Shown here: piece after piece, positions 39,226-45,804 of the stretch | Layout of the letters: each line of letters starts with the position of its first letter | Position numbering within the stretch: position 1 is the stretch's first letter | From: Streptacidiphilus rugosus AM-16 | GTDB lineage: Bacteria; Actinomycetota; Actinomycetes; Streptomycetales; Streptomycetaceae | Direction: 5' to 3' | Assembly (NCBI RefSeq): GCF_000744655.1 | Contig: NZ_JQMJ01000004.1 | Coordinates: 1,302,001-1,366,000 of the forward strand | DNA length: 64,000 nucleotides | Translations under genes and position numbers: made by a program | The notes under the pieces: model-generated | Database searches by the model: none | Told to the model about the DNA's origin: nothing | The model's input: the letters and a program-made list of their open reading frames with translations, nothing else

Positions 39226-41199
39226 TCAGCGCCGGTACTGCTCGAAGGCCCGCAGCGCCTCGGGGTCGTCGATCGAGCCGGGGTTCACCGCCTTCGCCAG
39301 CGGGGTGCCGGCCAGGATCCGCTTGACCGGCACCTCGATGCGCTTGCCGGTCAGCGTGTGAGGCAGCGCCGGCACGGCGATGACCTCGTCGGGCACGTGG
39401 CGCGGCGACAACTGCGTGCGCAGGGCGTCGCGGACGGCCGCCCGCAGCTCGTCGTCGAGCTCGGCGCCCTCGGCCAGCACCACGAACAGCGGCATCCAGT
39501 AGCCGCCCTCGGGCTCCTCCAGGCCGATGACCAGGGACTCCTTGATCTGCGGCAGCCGCTCGACGACCTCGTAGATGTCGGCGGAGCCCATCCGGACGCC
39601 CTGGCGGTTGAGCGTGGAGTCGGAGCGGCCGTGGATGACGACGGAGCCGCGCTCGGTGACCGTGATCCAGTCCCCGTGACGCCAGACGCCGGGGAACATC
39701 TCGAAGTAGCTCTCCCGGTACCTGGCGTCCTCGGGGTCGTTCCAGAAGCGGATCGGCATGGAGGGGATCGGCTTGGTGACGACCAGTTCGCCGACCTCGT
39801 CGACGACCGGCTTGCCGCTCGCGTCCCAGGCCTCGACGGCCGCGGCCAGGCTCGGGGCCTGGATCTCGCCGAGGTGCACCGGCAGGGTCGGGACACCGCC
39901 GACGAAGCAGCTGCACACGTCGGTGCCGCCGCTGACGGAGGCCAGCCAGACGTCGGGGCTGATCTCGTCGTAGATCCAGCGGAAGCCGTCGGGCGGCAGC
40001 GGCGAACCGGTCGTGCCGATGGCGCGCAGCCGGGAGAGGTCGAGGTCGCGGCCCGGGTGCACCTCGGCCTTCTTGCAGGCCATGACGTAGGCCGCGGAGG
40101 TGCCGTAGACGGTGACGCCGGCCTCGGCGGCGATGCGCCACTGAGCGTCGGCCGCCGGGTAGCCGGGGCTGCCGTCGTAGGTGACGATGCTCGCGCCCAC
40201 CAGCAGGCCGGCGAGCAGGAAGTTCCACATCATCCAGCCGGTGGAGGTGTACCAGAAGAACCGGTCGCCGGGGCCGAGGTCGAGGTGGAGTCCGGCCTGC
40301 TTGAGGTGCTCGACGGTGATGCCGCCGTGGCTCTGCACGATGGCCTTGGGCAGGCCGGTGGTGCCGGAGGAGTAGAGCACCCACAGGGGGTGGTCGAAGG
40401 GCAGCTGCTCGAAGACCGGCACGGCGGGCGCGGCCGTCAGCGCCTCCCACTCCAGCGCCCCCTCGGGGGCCTCGCTGCCGAGCAGCGGGATGTGGACGAC
40501 ATGGCGCAGCGTCGGCAGCTCGCGGCGCAGTTCGGCGACGACCTCGGCCCGGTCGTGCTGCTTGCCGCCGTAGCGGTAGCCGTCGACGGCGAAGAGCAGC
40601 ACCGGCTCGATCTGCTGGAAGCGGTCCAGCACGCTGCGCGCGCCGAAATCGGGCGCGCAGGAGGTCCAGATCGCGCCGACGGCGGCGGTGGCCAGCAGCG
40701 CGACGGCGGCCTGGGGCACGTTGGGCAGGTAGGCGCTGACGCGGTCGCCGGGGCCGACGCCGAGGCGGCGCAGCTCGGCCGCGAGGGAGCCGACCTGGCG
40801 GCGCAGCTCGGACCAGGTGGTGACGCGGGGGGTGGGGCTGCTCTCGTCGACGTGCAGGATGGCCGGGGTGTCGGCGTTCTGCGGGTCCTCGCCGTGCCGC
40901 AGCACGTGCTGGGCGTAGTTGAGCCGCGCGCCGGGGAACCAGCTCGCGCCGGGCATCGAGGCGTCCGCGAGGACCGCGGTCGGCGGGGTGGAGAAGCGCA
41001 CGTCGTACCACTGGGTCAGGGCCGACCAGAAGTCGTCCAGGTGCTCGACGGACCAGCGGTGGAAAGGGGCGTACTCGCCCGCGACGGCCTTGGGCGCGCC
41101 GTAGTACTCGGCGGCGAAGCGCTGGAAGGCGGCGAGCCGGGAGGCGGCGGCCCGCTCGGGGTCGGGCGTCCACAGGGGTGCGGTCTGTTCGCTGCTCAT
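39226..41199 (-). CDS. Acetoacetate-CoA ligase (acetoacetyl-CoA synthetase)
   Basis: 657 residues, typical length. ANL-superfamily adenylating enzyme: P-loop YSSGTTGLPKAIVQSHGG (about 281-298), FFWYTSTGWMMWNFLLAGLL, the A5-type region SGGTDVCSCFVGGVPTLP, the hinge HGRSDSTLNRQGVRMG, and the catalytic lysine region LTGKRIEVPVKRIL. The N-terminal WTPDPERAAASRLAAFQRFA and AVGAIWTSCAPDFG are characteristic of the acetoacetate enzyme rather than acetyl-CoA synthetase. It activates acetoacetate with ATP and CoA for ketone-body or polyhydroxybutyrate-type metabolism. ATG at 41199. Confidence 0.94.
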   Translation of the reverse strand: MSSEQTAPLWTPDPERAAASRLAAFQRFAAEYYGAPKAVAGEYAPFHRWSVEHLDDFWSALTQWYDVRFSTPPTAVLADASMPGASWFPGARLNYAQHVLRHGEDPQNADTPAILHVDESSPTPRVTTWSELRRQVGSLAAELRRLGVGPGDRVSAYLPNVPQAAVALLATAAVGAIWTSCAPDFGARSVLDRFQQIEPVLLFAVDGYRYGGKQHDRAEVVAELRRELPTLRHVVHIPLLGSEAPEGALEWEALTAAPAVPVFEQLPFDHPLWVLYSSGTTGLPKAIVQSHGGITVEHLKQAGLHLDLGPGDRFFWYTSTGWMMWNFLLAGLLVGASIVTYDGSPGYPAADAQWRIAAEAGVTVYGTSAAYVMACKKAEVHPGRDLDLSRLRAIGTTGSPLPPDGFRWIYDEISPDVWLASVSGGTDVCSCFVGGVPTLPVHLGEIQAPSLAAAVEAWDASGKPVVDEVGELVVTKPIPSMPIRFWNDPEDARYRESYFEMFPGVWRHGDWITVTERGSVVIHGRSDSTLNRQGVRMGSADIYEVVERLPQIKESLVIGLEEPEGGYWMPLFVVLAEGAELDDELRAAVRDALRTQLSPRHVPDEVIAVPALPHTLTGKRIEVPVKRILAGTPLAKAVNPGSIDDPEALRAFEQYRR

Positions 41200-41307
41200 G
41201 CGCGGTGCTGGCCTCCGGTTCAGGCGCACCCGCACGTCGATGGGCGGGTGGGAACGCCTGTGCAGAATCTGCCACGAATCCGGGGGGACGCGCCAGAGAG
41301 AGCTCTT

Positions 41308-42630
41308 TCACTTCGGGAGCGATCCGGCGGTCGCGCACCCCCGGCGGCGGGGCGAGCGGCGGCGCCACGAGGCCTGGCCGGTGCGTGGGCCGTTCGAGGT
41401 GAGCAGCACGGGCACGCCGAGGGCGTCGCCGACGGCCTCGGGCCAGCAGCCCGGGCGGTGCAGAGTGGCGGGGCGGGCGCGCAGCAGGTGGGCGGTGAGG
41501 CGCTGCTGCCGGTCGAGGTCGCCGGGCAGTCCGACGGAGAGGTCGCGGACCGTGCCGCCCTCCAGCGTGTACGAGTCGCACAGGCTCAGCCGTGCGGAGC
41601 GTGCGGGGGCGTCGAGGTGGGTGACGGCCAGCGCATCGGCGCCGCCCGCGGCGGCCAGCGCGTAGCGGTGGGCGACGGCGTCGAAGTGGCCCCGGCGGAA
41701 GGCGCCCTGCCAACGGCCGGCCGCGTTGTGCGGCTCGGGCAGCTCCGCGTCGAGCGCGGGGTCCTCGGTGACCAGCGGGCCGGGGCCGTGCCGGGTGGTG
41801 CAGGTGCGGACGACGCCGAGGCGGAGGGCGTCGCCCGCGATGTCCGCTCCCGCCTCGGTCAGCAGGGCGTCGGCGTTGGCGAAGGTGGTGGTGGACCAGG
41901 TGGTGTAGGGGTGGAAGCCGTACCACTCGTCCAGCAGCACGCCCTGCGCGCCCTCGAGGACGACCCGCTCCCGGCGGAGCAGGTCCGGCAGGTGGGTCTC
42001 GTCGGTGAGGCGGACCCGCTCGGCGAAGGCGCTGAACGCGACCGCGCAGTCCGCCAGGGGCGGGCCGAACTCCCCGGCCACGCCCAGCTGTTCGGCCAGC
42101 CGTTCGCGCAGCCGCCGGAGCCGGTGGTGCAGCCGCTCCGGCTCGGCGCAGTCCCCGGCGACGGGCGCCTCCTCGGGGTGCGCGAGCGCGTACGCGGCGG
42201 TCTCGCCGATGCCCATGCCGCAGGAGCCGTGGCGTCCGGCTCCGCGGGCCTGTTCGCGCAGGCGGTTGGCGAGGGCGTGGTACGGGGTGGTGAGCAGGGC
42301 GCGGCGGTCGACGGTGAGGGCGCCGAGCGGATCGGGGACGCCCAGCGAGGCCAGGTGGCGGGCCTCGGCCGCGAGCGCGAGCGGGTCGACCAGCACGAAG
42401 CGGGACAGGTGGGTCCGCACGCCCGGTACCAGGCCGCCGGAGCCGAACTGGGCGAAGGTGTGGTGCCTGCCGTCGTCGGTCACCACGTTGTGGGCCGCCT
42501 GCGCCCCGCCGTTGAAGCGCACGACGGTGTGTGCGCCCATGGCGCGGCACAGGCGGTCCACGGTGGCGCCCTTGCCGGCGTCGCCGAACCCGAGGTCGAC
42601 GACGACGGCGTGGCGCTGTTCGATCGTCAC
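41308..42630 (-). CDS. Divergent adenylosuccinate synthetase (PurA) family protein in a four-gene operon
   Basis: 440 residues. The purA fold is recognisable: N-terminal VVDLGFGDAGKGATVDRL (cf. GDEGKGK; catalytic Asp17 kept, Glu replaced by Ala18), VRFNGGAQAAHNVV with His47 (cf. GGNNAGHT), GSCGMGIGETAAYALAH, VVLEGAQGVLLDEWYGFHPYTT, TRHGPGPLVTED (cf. TRVGxGPFPTE) and FDAVAHRYALAAAGGADALAVTHLD. PurA ligates aspartate to IMP with GTP. The changed loops suggest altered base or partner; housekeeping purA is probably elsewhere. GTG start overlaps the vWA stop by four bases. See the operon finding for context. Confidence 0.85.
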   Translation of the reverse strand: MTIEQRHAVVVDLGFGDAGKGATVDRLCRAMGAHTVVRFNGGAQAAHNVVTDDGRHHTFAQFGSGGLVPGVRTHLSRFVLVDPLALAAEARHLASLGVPDPLGALTVDRRALLTTPYHALANRLREQARGAGRHGSCGMGIGETAAYALAHPEEAPVAGDCAEPERLHHRLRRLRERLAEQLGVAGEFGPPLADCAVAFSAFAERVRLTDETHLPDLLRRERVVLEGAQGVLLDEWYGFHPYTTWSTTTFANADALLTEAGADIAGDALRLGVVRTCTTRHGPGPLVTEDPALDAELPEPHNAAGRWQGAFRRGHFDAVAHRYALAAAGGADALAVTHLDAPARSARLSLCDSYTLEGGTVRDLSVGLPGDLDRQQRLTAHLLRARPATLHRPGCWPEAVGDALGVPVLLTSNGPRTGQASWRRRSPRRRGCATAGSLPK

Positions 42631-43670
42631 AGCCGGGTGTTCCCCTGGCGACCGCCTCCGCCGTCGGTCCGGTCCGTGCCGTCGCTGCGGTCGCCCTGAG
42701 CCGCCCGGCTCTGGGAGCCGAGCAGCGAGACGCCGGAGACGGCGGTCTCGCCGCCGCGGCGGGCGACCTCCGCCAGGGCGCGGCCCACGCTGTCCCCGGC
42801 GCGGGAGCCGACGTCGGCGAGGTCGGCGAGGCCTTCGTCCAGGTCGATGGCCTCCTCGCCGAGCCCGATCGTGAGCGCGATGGTCTCGCACACCGCGTCC
42901 AGGTCGTCGAGTTCGATGACGTTCTGGTGGAGCAGCGACCGCCAGCGGCCGAGGACCTCGGGGTTGCCCGCGTAGGACGCTCCCGCGGGCAGGATGTAGT
43001 AGACGTGCCAGCGGCGCTGCAGCTCCGGCAGCAGCGCGGCGAGCGGCAGGTCCTCGGGGATCCGTTCGCCGAGGACCTCGCCGACCTCGCGTGCCTTGAC
43101 CTTGCCGTAGGGCAGCTCGTCGCCGATGAGGAAGAGGTAGCCGCGGCGGCCGCGCTTCTCGAAGCAGTCGGTGGCGGTGTGCCGGGCGATGGCGTACATG
43201 GCCAGCTCGTAGGACTCGTGCATCTGTCCTCCGCCACCGCCCTCGAGGAAGATGTTGCCGAGGTTGTCGTCCATCCGGTTGTCCGACTCGAACTGCCCCA
43301 GCTGGAGCGGGACCCGGTCGCAGGTGGCGTCGCCGACCGCGCCGAAGAGGATCTGCGGGTCGCGGGTGTAACCCTTGCGGAGCAACAGCCCGAAGAGTTC
43401 CGGCAGCTTGGTCTGCAGGACGCGCGGAACGGTGCCCATCGAACCGGTGACGTCGAACAGCACGGCGACGGCGAGCGAGTCGGGGTGTTCGACGCTGTCC
43501 CTGCTCTCACGCACGGTGAGGCCGAGCGGGTCCAGGCTCGGGTGGGCCCGCCAGGTGTGCCGGGCGCCGCGCCGGGCGCGGTCGCTGTAGTCGAACGCGC
43601 CGAGGCCGCTGGCGGCGCGGTAGTCGGCGGCTGCCGTGTAGACGTCGGTGTCCCAGCGTCCGCTTCCCAT
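42627..43670 (-). CDS. von Willebrand factor type A (vWA) domain protein
   Basis: 347 residues. The vWA domain spans about 65-265: AVAVLFDVTGSMGTVPRVLQ holds a MIDAS metal site of form DxTxS (Asp73, Thr75, Ser77); later landmarks are FGAVGDATCDRVPLQLGQFE, FLEGGGGGQMHESYELAMYA and RGYLFLIGDELPYG. N-terminal residues include TAAADYRAASGLGAFDYSD. A charged, Gly/Asp/Arg-rich tail follows (QGDRSDGTDRTDGGGG). No signal peptide or membrane helix, so cytoplasmic; vWA proteins of this type act as scaffolds in multi-protein assemblies. Third gene of the operon. ATG at 43670 with GGGGGAACC upstream. Confidence 0.9.
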   Translation of the reverse strand: MGSGRWDTDVYTAAADYRAASGLGAFDYSDRARRGARHTWRAHPSLDPLGLTVRESRDSVEHPDSLAVAVLFDVTGSMGTVPRVLQTKLPELFGLLLRKGYTRDPQILFGAVGDATCDRVPLQLGQFESDNRMDDNLGNIFLEGGGGGQMHESYELAMYAIARHTATDCFEKRGRRGYLFLIGDELPYGKVKAREVGEVLGERIPEDLPLAALLPELQRRWHVYYILPAGASYAGNPEVLGRWRSLLHQNVIELDDLDAVCETIALTIGLGEEAIDLDEGLADLADVGSRAGDSVGRALAEVARRGGETAVSGVSLLGSQSRAAQGDRSDGTDRTDGGGGRQGNTRL

Positions 43671-43768
43671 GGTGGTTCCCCCAGATGTCGTCGTTCGGTC
43701 GGAGCGGTCGGGCGGTCGGGCCGTCGTGCGCGGACGGCCGGCCGGATGGGAGGCCGCCGGACGGCGGG

Positions 43769-44845
43769 TCAGGCGACGGGCAGGTGCAGGGCCCGGAAGG
43801 TGCGCGGTCCGTACAGGTGCGCCAGCAGCTGGTCGAGTTCGCCCAGCAGCTTCCAGGCGTCGTGCGGGCGGCGCGGTTCGGCGGGCAGCATGCAGCCGGC
43901 CAGGAAGGCGCGCATCTCGCGCGGGGCGCGTCCGCCCATCAGTTCGGCGATGCAGTGGCTGGCCAGGTGGATGTCGGTGGCCTCGGTGACCGGCCGCCGG
44001 TCGGCGACCTCGGGCGGATAACGGTGCCGGTGCCGCTCGACCAGGGCCGGGGCGGGTGTGCGCGGGCCCGTGGTGGCGTAGCACCAGTCGACCAGGACCA
44101 GGCCGTGCTCCTCGAGTTGGACCAGGATGTGCTCGGGCAGCACCGCGCCGTGCCGTACCCCGGTGCGGTGCGCGTGGCCGAGGGCGACCAGCAGCCTGCG
44201 CCAGATCCAGGCGGCGTCGCGCGGGTCGAGCCCGGCCGGGAAGGCGGCGCGCAGTTCGGCGAGGGTGGTGAAGCCGTCGAGCCGCAGCAGCGCGTTGACG
44301 CGGCGCGGCGCGCCGGCCGGGTCGCTCGCGTCGGCGTGCCGGAAGCTCTCCAGCAGCGTGGGCACGTAGGGGCGGAAGCGCGGGTCCCCGTGCCGGGCGA
44401 GCCAGCCGAGTGCGTGGGCCTCGCGTTCCATCAGGTCGTTGTCAGCGGCGATCCGGGAGATCTTGAGGACGGCGTCGAGTTCGTGGCCGCCGTCGCGCGG
44501 GCGGGCGCGGGCGGCGCGCAGCACCGCGACGTCCCCGGTGCCGATCAGCTCGCCGATCCGGTAGCGGTGCCGACGGGTCGTCAGCAGGTCGGCGGGCTGG
44601 GCCTGCTGGGCGGCCCTGAGCCGGTTGAGCGCGGCGCAGGCGGCGGTCGCCTCGGCGCGGTGCCCGAGCGGTGCCGTGTCCGGGTGCAGCAGCCGGGCCA
44701 GGCGCCGGTACCGCCGGGCGGCGGTGGCGGCGTCGGTCGGATAGCCGCCGAAGAGGTCGTCCGGGCCGCGGGCGGTGGCGAGGGCGGCCAGCGCCTCCTC
44801 GTAGGTGCGCGGACGCGCGGGCCGGTCCTGGGCGGGGTCGGTCAC
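43769..44845 (-). CDS. J-domain fused to a Ser/Thr pseudokinase-like domain
   Basis: 358 residues. N-terminal J-like helices with the diagnostic HPD at 54-56 (AARRYRRLARLLHPDTAPLG). From about 94 a protein-kinase fold: HRYRIGELIGTGDVAVLRAA (glycine-rich loop) and AVLKIS with the ATP-contacting Lys128. The catalytic loop reads HGAVLPEHIL (232-241) where active kinases have HRDLKPENIL; the catalytic Asp is Ala234 and the Asn is His. The DFG site is DWC (253-255). DIHLASHCIAELM resembles the following kinase helix. I infer binding or scaffolding rather than phosphotransfer. GTG start overlaps the Nudix stop by four bases. Confidence 0.82.
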   Translation of the reverse strand: MTDPAQDRPARPRTYEEALAALATARGPDDLFGGYPTDAATAARRYRRLARLLHPDTAPLGHRAEATAACAALNRLRAAQQAQPADLLTTRRHRYRIGELIGTGDVAVLRAARARPRDGGHELDAVLKISRIAADNDLMEREAHALGWLARHGDPRFRPYVPTLLESFRHADASDPAGAPRRVNALLRLDGFTTLAELRAAFPAGLDPRDAAWIWRRLLVALGHAHRTGVRHGAVLPEHILVQLEEHGLVLVDWCYATTGPRTPAPALVERHRHRYPPEVADRRPVTEATDIHLASHCIAELMGGRAPREMRAFLAGCMLPAEPRRPHDAWKLLGELDQLLAHLYGPRTFRALHLPVA

Positions 44846-45678
44846 CGGATTCCCTCCTCGCGGTCGGGGCGCAGCAGCGCCGGGTGGAGCAGCCGCGCGT
44901 CGCCCGCGCGGTAGACCTTGGCGCGCGGTCCCCCGCGGGCGTTGCCGCGCTCGGCGGTCTCGCCGGTGCTCTCGACGAAGCCGGGGACGGAGAGCACCTT
45001 GCGGTGGAAGTTGCCGGGGTGGAGCTTCTCGCCCCAGATCTCCTCGTAGACGCCGCGCAGTTCCGGGATGGTGAACTCCGACGCGAGGAAAGCGGTGGCC
45101 AGCGGCGTGTACTCGACCTTGGCGCGGGCGCGCTCCAGCGCGTCGGCGAGGATCGCGGCGTGGTCGAAGGCCAGCCCACGTCCGGCGAGCGGGGCGCTGC
45201 GAGGTTCCCGGTCACCGGTCCCACCCCCGTGAGGACCGGCGACCGGAGTCCAGACGGCGCGGGCGGCGTCGCCGCCGGCGCGCGGGTCGGGAAGGTCGGG
45301 TGCGAAGGCCAGGTAGGCCACCGAGACGACGTGCATGCGCGGGTCCCGCCCGGGCGCGCCGTAGGAGCCGAGCTGCTCCAGGTGCACCCGCTCCAGGGCC
45401 TCCCCGGTGAGTCCGGTCTCCTCGGCCAGCTCCCGGGCGGCGGCAGTGTCGAGATCCTCCTCGCCCGCCTTGACGAACCCGCCGGGCAGTGCCCAGCAGC
45501 CCTGGAAGGGCGGCTCGGCCCGCTCCACCAGCAGCACGTTGAGCCTGCCCTGACGCATGGTCAGCGCGATGATGTCGACGGTGAGCGCGATCGGCGGAAA
45601 GGCGCGCGGGTCGTAGTCCCTGAGCCACGCGGCCTCGCCCTCGCGGGAGGTGTCGGATGCGGCCGGCTGCGGACTCAT
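44842..45678 (-). CDS. NrtR-like Nudix domain transcriptional regulator/hydrolase
   Basis: 278 residues. Nudix domain about 25-170; Nudix box GGFVKAGEEDLDTAAARELAEETGL (written here in two parts: GGFVKAGEEDLDT, AAARELAEETGL). Compared with the GX5EX7REUXEEXGU rule it carries one extra residue, so hydrolysis may be weakened, as in many NrtR regulators. The C-terminal winged helix (about 190-255) shows YTPLATAFLASEFTIPELRG and VYEEIWGEKLHPGNFHRKVL, typical of NrtR. Such proteins sense ADP-ribose or NAD-related nucleotides and bind palindromic operators. First gene of the four-gene operon. ATG at 45678; the frame extends 16 codons upstream through the inverted repeat, a less likely start. Confidence 0.87.
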   Translation of the reverse strand: MSPQPAASDTSREGEAAWLRDYDPRAFPPIALTVDIIALTMRQGRLNVLLVERAEPPFQGCWALPGGFVKAGEEDLDTAAARELAEETGLTGEALERVHLEQLGSYGAPGRDPRMHVVSVAYLAFAPDLPDPRAGGDAARAVWTPVAGPHGGGTGDREPRSAPLAGRGLAFDHAAILADALERARAKVEYTPLATAFLASEFTIPELRGVYEEIWGEKLHPGNFHRKVLSVPGFVESTGETAERGNARGGPRAKVYRAGDARLLHPALLRPDREEGIR

Positions 45679-45689
45679 CGGGGCTCCAG

Positions 45690-45726
45690 TTGTTCTCTCA
45701 GTGAGTATTTCTCGATCTGAGAACAA
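45690..45726. promoter_or_regulatory. Inverted repeat upstream of the NrtR-like operon, candidate operator
   Basis: TTGTTCTC (45690-45697) is mirrored by GAGAACAA (45719-45726), and the minus strand has a small inner palindrome ACTCACTGAG between them. It lies 12-48 bases before the start codon at 45678. NrtR-type regulators commonly bind such sites in their own promoter; the link is inference. Confidence 0.5.
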
Positions 45727-45804
45727 CGTAGCGTGCAGGGCACGGCTGCGCCAGCCCCCGTGCGGCGTTTTCCACCCGGGGCCGGTCGCGGCGCGGGAGC
45801 CCGG

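Follow-up and report, generated by a model that had tools for sequence, protein, structure and literature searches.

A gene cassette of Streptacidiphilus rugosus, actinobacterial relatives, plasmids and large phages built around a third branch of the adenylosuccinate synthetase family

The stretch of 64,000 nucleotides from the genome of Streptacidiphilus rugosus AM-16 that was analysed here (hereafter the window) contains four genes on the minus strand, at positions 41308-45678, which encode an NrtR-type Nudix regulator, a protein combining a J-like domain with a protein-kinase fold (JK), a vWA-like protein, and a divergent homologue of adenylosuccinate synthetase (PurA) that we refer to as PurA2 (Table 1). 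An earlier note on this DNA, made from the sequence without database searches, had proposed that these four open reading frames form an operon, and all four are indeed present. The 4-base stop/start overlaps that it described are exact and both read GTGA (44842-44845 and 42627-42630), and the same is true for the 98-base gap, which is located between the genes for JK and the vWA protein (43671-43768). Likewise, domain, motif and structure matches support the proposed list of parts, and the idea that these parts make up a functional unit is supported by their conservation across taxonomic families and in phages. One boundary had to be moved, namely the start of the Nudix gene: the TTG at 45726 that was taken as its start codon falls within a control element. 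Since positions 45689-45727 represent an operator, and since a GGAG ribosome site (45687-45684) precedes the ATG at 45678, the gene almost certainly starts at this ATG.

Table 1. Genes and operator of the four-gene set; positions are those of the window.
Feature	Position	Strand	Description
NrtR-type regulator (Nudix + NrtR winged helix)	44842..45678	minus	278 aa, ATG start; PF00293, PF21906
JK: N-terminal J-like domain + protein-kinase fold	43769..44845	minus	358 aa, GTG start
vWA-like protein: MIDAS-type DVTGS, GGGGGQ loop, GDE	42627..43670	minus	347 aa, ATG start
PurA2: third-branch adenylosuccinate-synthetase homologue	41308..42630	minus	440 aa, GTG start
Operator: GTTGTTCTC-AGATC-GAGAAATACTC-ACTGA-GAGAACAAC	45689..45727	minus	two CTC-N5-GAG palindromes

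PurA2 matches the adenylosuccinate synthetase family PF00709 with 196.7 bits over most of its length, and it shares with PurA of Escherichia coli the fold family and the GDxGKG loop. Its score with the NCBIfam PurA model is 146.9 bits versus a cut-off of 402 bits. A phylogenetic tree placed 66 bacterial, plasmid and phage PurA2 sequences on one side of a branch with a length of 1.54 and a Shimodaira-Hasegawa-like approximate likelihood ratio (SH-aLRT) value of 99, opposite to 15 normal PurA and 2 PurZ sequences; the tree was built by a quick method, and its long branches leave the placement of PurZ unsure. The bacterial PurA2 sequences cluster tightly with actinobacterial-type phage and plasmid sequences. 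Next to PurA and PurZ, PurA2 therefore constitutes a third branch of the adenylosuccinate synthetase family. The earlier note had spoken of a 'divergent PurA' and had raised the question of whether it groups tightly with housekeeping purA; on the basis of the tree such a grouping was rejected, as PurA2 forms a clade of its own. Two phage records, L207 (Staphylococcus phage SA 1306 Kay, OR844989) and L208 (a 735-kb uncultured phage), contain an ordinary-looking PurA that groups with the housekeeping enzymes, the former being an UNVERIFIED 282-kb clone that may be bacterial DNA. The genes for PurA2 are always additional to housekeeping purA. The host genome has a normal purA elsewhere (616 bits), and a second PurA of ~163-196 bits, present in 10 of 118 genomes of the host's class (in one case split into two pieces), was always accompanied by a housekeeping PurA of ~600 bits. 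In one genome of this class (G346:C1:4223130-4234819), housekeeping purA is located ~9 kb from the PurA2 cassette.

Residues were counted in 81 bacterial and 48 phage or plasmid PurA2 sequences, numbered against E. coli PurA. D13, K16, H41, Q224 and T239 are kept in essentially all 129 sequences, with Asp at position 13 in all 128 that have a residue there, and D333 is kept in all bacterial sequences and in 42 of the 48 from phages and plasmids. Other sites differ from PurA throughout the clade: N38 is replaced by Q, T129 by C (T or V in a few), V273 by H in all 129, T300 by W, F or Y, T301 by Q in 128 of 129, and R305 by F or another, mostly non-polar, residue, while R143 is mostly acidic and R303 is gapped in 129/129. 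N38, R143, V273, T300, T301, R303 and R305 are all kept in the 14/14 housekeeping PurA sequences that were aligned. The four aspartate-binding residues at positions 300, 301, 303 and 305 are thus replaced or absent in PurA2 from bacteria, plasmids and phages alike. From the enzymology of PurA, together with a published comparison of PurA and PurZ (PMC8342488), we take the changed positions to be those of the aspartate loop and of the contacts to the phosphate and ribose of inosine monophosphate (IMP). Judged by this residue pattern, PurA2 appears to have kept the catalytic start of the reaction and to have changed its second substrate.

With PurA2 as the query, bacterial genomes yielded 350 candidate loci, and the best 80 of these were kept for counts. 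The vWA gene was present in 79/80, the NrtR gene in 75/80 and the JK gene in 74/80. Five of the loci with a missing gene are at contig ends, and in four loci the NrtR gene abuts the vWA gene with no JK gene in between. The 80 loci belong mostly to Streptomycetaceae, Micromonosporaceae, Thermomonosporaceae, Streptosporangiaceae and Frankiaceae, and the stop/start overlaps recur across actinobacterial loci. While the neighbourhood is conserved within taxonomic families, a search for a fifth conserved gene in a sample of the 80 loci found no flanking gene family common to different families, and the unit therefore consists of exactly these four genes. PurA2 adjoins vWA in 30/30 loci listed from the host's own family, and the set is retained together in many soil bacteria. 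Its presence is patchy: of 150 genomes from the host's family, 55 have the vWA gene, and in a phylum-wide sample only 2 of 396 genomes do. Conserved co-occurrence had been set beforehand as a check on the proposed operon; the four genes are found together across five actinobacterial families, and the trio of JK, vWA and PurA2 also in phages. The view that the set is a strain-specific curiosity was rejected, since it is conserved in five families. The module is real, widespread and apparently undescribed; no published description of the four-gene set was found in the open literature, subscription papers and preprints being outside the search. An acetoacetyl-CoA synthetase-like gene on the same strand (39226-41235) begins ~75-110 bases downstream of PurA2, and this neighbour is not conserved beside the cassette in other families.

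Each of the three proteins encoded downstream of the regulator has a family in PHROGs (for example, phrog_2971 at 4e-73 for vWA and phrog_1211 at 1e-70 for PurA2). About 190 Bixzunavirus mycobacteriophages carry, in this order, genes for the kinase, the vWA protein, a small protein and a 'PurA-like adenylosuccinate synthetase'. Plasmids of Rhodococcus and Tsukamurella have the order JK-vWA-PurA2-Nudix. Plasmids of Alphaproteobacteria and Betaproteobacteria have the trio as well (JK-vWA-PurA2 in each case); in Agrobacterium, Acetobacter and Rhizobium it is accompanied by a divergent Nudix gene, and in Variovorax it stands alone. On a Rhodovulum plasmid, genes for a Nudix protein, JK and vWA are present, and PurA2 was not found there; Vibrio and Rhizobium phages have at least vWA-PurA2. 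A scan of virus contigs with the vWA alignment gave 47 metagenomic loci, many on contigs of 100-437 kb, with PurA2 present in 44/47 and JK in 35/47. The gene order is variable, being either JK-vWA-PurA2 or vWA-PurA2-JK, and the association is therefore not explained by one ancestral arrangement. In 36 phage and plasmid loci, the distance matrices of JK, vWA and PurA2 correlate at 0.72-0.83, with ~0.31 as the best permuted value and 0 of 999 permutations as high as observed. The three are inherited together, be it in bacteria, on plasmids or in large phages; vWA and PurA2 are the near-constant core, and JK is usually present too. The set of four genes in the earlier note stands as conserved; that note did not know that phages and plasmids carry the trio, mostly without the regulator. 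In some Bixzunavirus phages the vWA gene, such as that for gp252 of Mycobacterium phage CharlieB (L210:3001-4782), contains an in-frame insertion of ~250 aa with intein hallmarks: its first residue is Cys, its end reads SN followed by C, and it is located directly before the FIGDE strand with the GDE motif. Inteins favour such active-site places. The open reading frame with this insertion is annotated as a whole as 'HNH endonuclease'.

The structure model of JK has a predicted local distance difference test (pLDDT) value of 90.6, and the kinase fold that it predicts is firm, being closest to PknB in a structure comparison in which other kinases were matched too. Since the HRD motif reads HGA, and the aspartate is thus missing, JK is predicted to be a pseudokinase; the Asn that follows is usually His, and the Lys is kept. 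The J domain is supported by an HPD motif (residues 54-56) between two helices (39-53 and 60-82) and is weak in Pfam, with 13.3 of the 27.8 bits set for DnaJ and weak matches in 11 of 16 members. For the vWA protein, no match was found in Pfam or in a sequence search of the PDB. Its model is poor in parts (pLDDT 67), and the Foldseek matches are integrin I domains. DVTGS and GDE are conserved among the vWA proteins, and GGGGGQ is found where a metal-binding Thr loop is usual. The vWA assignment is supported by these motifs and the Foldseek matches. It is from the J and vWA domains only that a 'chaperone-assisted' complex, as suggested in the earlier note, might be expected.

The Nudix protein matches PF00293 (2e-21) and the NrtR winged helix PF21906 (3e-12), both above the cut-offs, and on these sequence matches its assignment is firm. 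It also matches the structures of Shewanella NrtR (3gz5) and AraR (5bs6). As in the NrtR regulators, which Rodionov is said to have described in 2008, a Nudix domain is joined to a winged helix, the gene heads an operon, and the operator is palindromic. The present regulator differs in that its REUxEExGU segment is intact, in that it scores only 111.9 of 400 bits, and thus under the cut-off, with the curated NCBIfam NtrR equivalog, in that its operator is a tandem, and in that the actinobacterial genes under its control are not genes for nicotinamide adenine dinucleotide (NAD). The repeat that was reported to head the operon is present, but rather than one inverted repeat it consists of two CTC-N5-GAG palindromes in tandem, at 45721-45711 and 45705-45695, which repeat with a period of 16 bp. 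CTC-N5-GAG-N5-CTC-N5-GAG was matched 12/12 in 65 of 76 homologous leaders and 11/12 in 6 of them. This cannot be explained as a chance match, since 1,520 shuffled leaders never reached 12/12. In Actinomadura leaders (e.g. L072 and L078), the array seems to be extended to three palindromes with the same period. No 12/12 match was found in phage or plasmid loci, and the leader gave no Rfam match for an RNA element. Across the 9.0 Mb of the host genome there is a single site with the strict pattern, and the regulator therefore looks dedicated to its own operon. Indeed, as the cassette has no NAD genes and the operator is single in the genome, the regulator of the bacterial cassette would control none. 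The operator immediately follows a -10-like TACGTT (45730-45725), and the ribosome site lies downstream of it. The conserved TANGTT is likely a -10 element, and a placement between the two is what would be expected for repression.

A few virus loci place the trio near genes of NAD metabolism. L133 contains, in one run of genes, NrtR, vWA, a Nudix protein, NAMPT, PurA2 and JK, and in L136 and L140 NrtR and NAMPT are followed by vWA, Nudix (L136), PurA2 and JK; these three viral loci are the only ones with NAMPT beside NrtR. NAMPT is also nearby in L148, a NADAR gene is close to vWA-PurA2 in Vibrio phage L168, and Rhizobium phage L167 has a Ter-type PRTase_3 gene as well as HAD and Nudix genes. 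Across whole virus records with the trio, NAMPT (over the cut-off) was found in 6/38, NrtR in 3/38 and NADAR in 16/41, numbers that come without a background rate and are suggestive only. For some members only, these genes lend support to an NAD/ADP-ribose setting. Regulation by NAD or ADP-ribose, as proposed in the earlier note, is plausible by homology and from the few phage clusters that have NAMPT and Nudix genes. The note had also been reminded of Ter-type biosynthetic modules, and had stated that no TerD protein is present. The cassette shares with them a vWA protein beside nucleotide-type enzymes, and in phage L167 PRTase_3 and HAD genes are located upstream; however, it is indeed without TerD, it has an enzyme of the adenylosuccinate synthetase type, and the link is seen only in that Rhizobium phage group.

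The cassette most likely serves to make a modified purine nucleotide: the enzyme would be the third-branch adenylosuccinate synthetase, its partners the vWA protein and the J-pseudokinase, and in Actinobacteria the set would be controlled by NrtR. To a conserved nucleotide-chemistry module centred on PurA2 and working by the mechanism that follows, we assign a probability of roughly 0.45. As Asp13, Lys16, His41, Gln224 and, in most sequences, the guanine-reading Asp333 are kept, PurA2 would use GTP to phosphorylate a purine nucleotide at its 6-oxo group. With T300, T301, R303 and R305 replaced or lost, it would then join the activated purine to some amine different from L-aspartate. The 5'-phosphate of the substrate may be held differently, since Arg143 (the clamp), Thr129 and Asn38 are changed. 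Going by their domains, the vWA protein and the J-domain pseudokinase may act with Hsp70 in the assembly, activation or targeting of PurA2 or of its client. By homology, NrtR bound in the interval from the -10 region to the start codon would keep the operon repressed, and a rise in ADP-ribose or in another nucleotide derived from NAD would release it from the operator. In infection, the trio would serve phages for the synthesis of this same nucleotide product, in a few of them alongside NAD salvage genes. Of the 'modified purine or adenylosuccinate-like' product suggested previously, the modified purine fits the residue pattern, but an adenylosuccinate-like product is less likely with the aspartate-binding residues gone. 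A bolder version, which we hold to be unlikely, is that PurA2 makes a new N6-substituted purine nucleotide, maybe on a dinucleotide (such as an NAD or ADP-ribose analogue), using a vWA/J-pseudokinase assembly that accompanies no other enzyme, in a pathway common to phages and bacteria that contest NAD or nucleotide pools.

Several observations weigh against the proposed nucleotide-chemistry module. In 4 bacterial loci the spacing leaves no place for JK, and ~12 of the 47 virus loci are without it, so that it is not indispensable. The J domain of JK scores under the Pfam cut-off, and the loss of the aspartate residues is read from an alignment around a gap. Since most phages with the trio have neither NrtR nor NAMPT, the part of NAD may be limited to that of a regulatory input in bacteria.

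The cassette might instead belong to conflict biology. In ADP-ribose counter systems centred on ADP-ribosylglycohydrolase (ARG), one operon encodes both a Nudix-helix-turn-helix regulator and a chaperone-type vWA protein (Iyer et al. 2022, PMC9503650 section 3.8). By analogy, the regulator would be off by default and induced by ADP-ribose, the partners would bind modified clients, and phages would use the trio for counter-defence. This is in line with the similar regulator type and vWA theme, the patchy presence in the host's family, the location of the trio on mobile DNA, and the NADAR and NAMPT genes with the reservation made above. However, the conserved cassette has no ARG or other ADP-ribosyl hydrolase, phosphatase, nuclease or other effector, and contains an adenylosuccinate synthetase-like enzyme and a J-pseudokinase instead, PADLOC gives weak kinase matches only, and the neighbourhood is conserved within families rather than reshuffled. 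We consider such a system unlikely.

It is less probable still that PurA2 is a second, stress-induced adenylosuccinate synthetase (using IMP, aspartate and GTP) with an assembly apparatus, which phages would use to boost adenine nucleotide supply. The PF00709 match and the kept catalytic Asp, His, Lys and Gln are consistent with this idea, and a Lyase_1 gene is present in only 1 of 41 trio virus records, so that in the other 40 host PurB would process adenylosuccinate. Against it stand the substrate-contacting residues changed in both bacterial and phage PurA2, the low NCBIfam PurA score, the long separate branch, and the normal purA that host genomes always keep. PurA2 could also have left metabolism and serve, within a vWA/pseudokinase complex remodelling a client protein, as a scaffold subunit or a GTP-dependent switch. 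Its partners are all of scaffold or chaperone type, and the GTP site is mostly kept where substrate contacts are changed; yet Asp13, His41 and Gln224, which serve purine activation beyond GTP binding, are invariant even in very diverged phage PurA2, and we regard this role as distinctly improbable. Like PurZ of the Z-DNA phages phiVC8 and S-2L, PurA2 is a phage-encoded divergent homologue that needs host enzymes downstream, and the PHROG name and the RefSeq name of phage homologues hint at synthesis of the 2-aminoadenine (Z) precursor for DNA. PurZ, however, carries Ser or Gly in place of the catalytic Asp13 (PMC12884076), with Ser in phiVC8 and S-2L, and PurA2 also differs from it in its vWA and pseudokinase partners. 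Given the Asp at position 13, the PurZ sequences outside the PurA2 clade, and a NCBIfam PurZ score of 35.5 versus a cut-off of 300, a Z-DNA function was rejected as largely refuted and is very improbable indeed. The name '2-aminooxy adenylosuccinate synthetase', which L115, L167, L168 and many phage records bear in common with phiVC8 PurZ, is probably a misleading transfer, since PurA2 keeps the catalytic Asp that PurZ lacks.

With PurA2, the adenylosuccinate synthetase family gains a third branch with fixed non-metabolic partners, which is spread over Actinobacteria, plasmids and large phages, the well-studied Bixzunavirus mycobacteriophages included. Mycobacterium smegmatis phages, as well as Streptacidiphilus or Kitasatospora, offer tractable systems for testing its function. 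If PurA2 does make a new nucleotide, the cassette would represent a pathway where phage infection meets NAD signalling.

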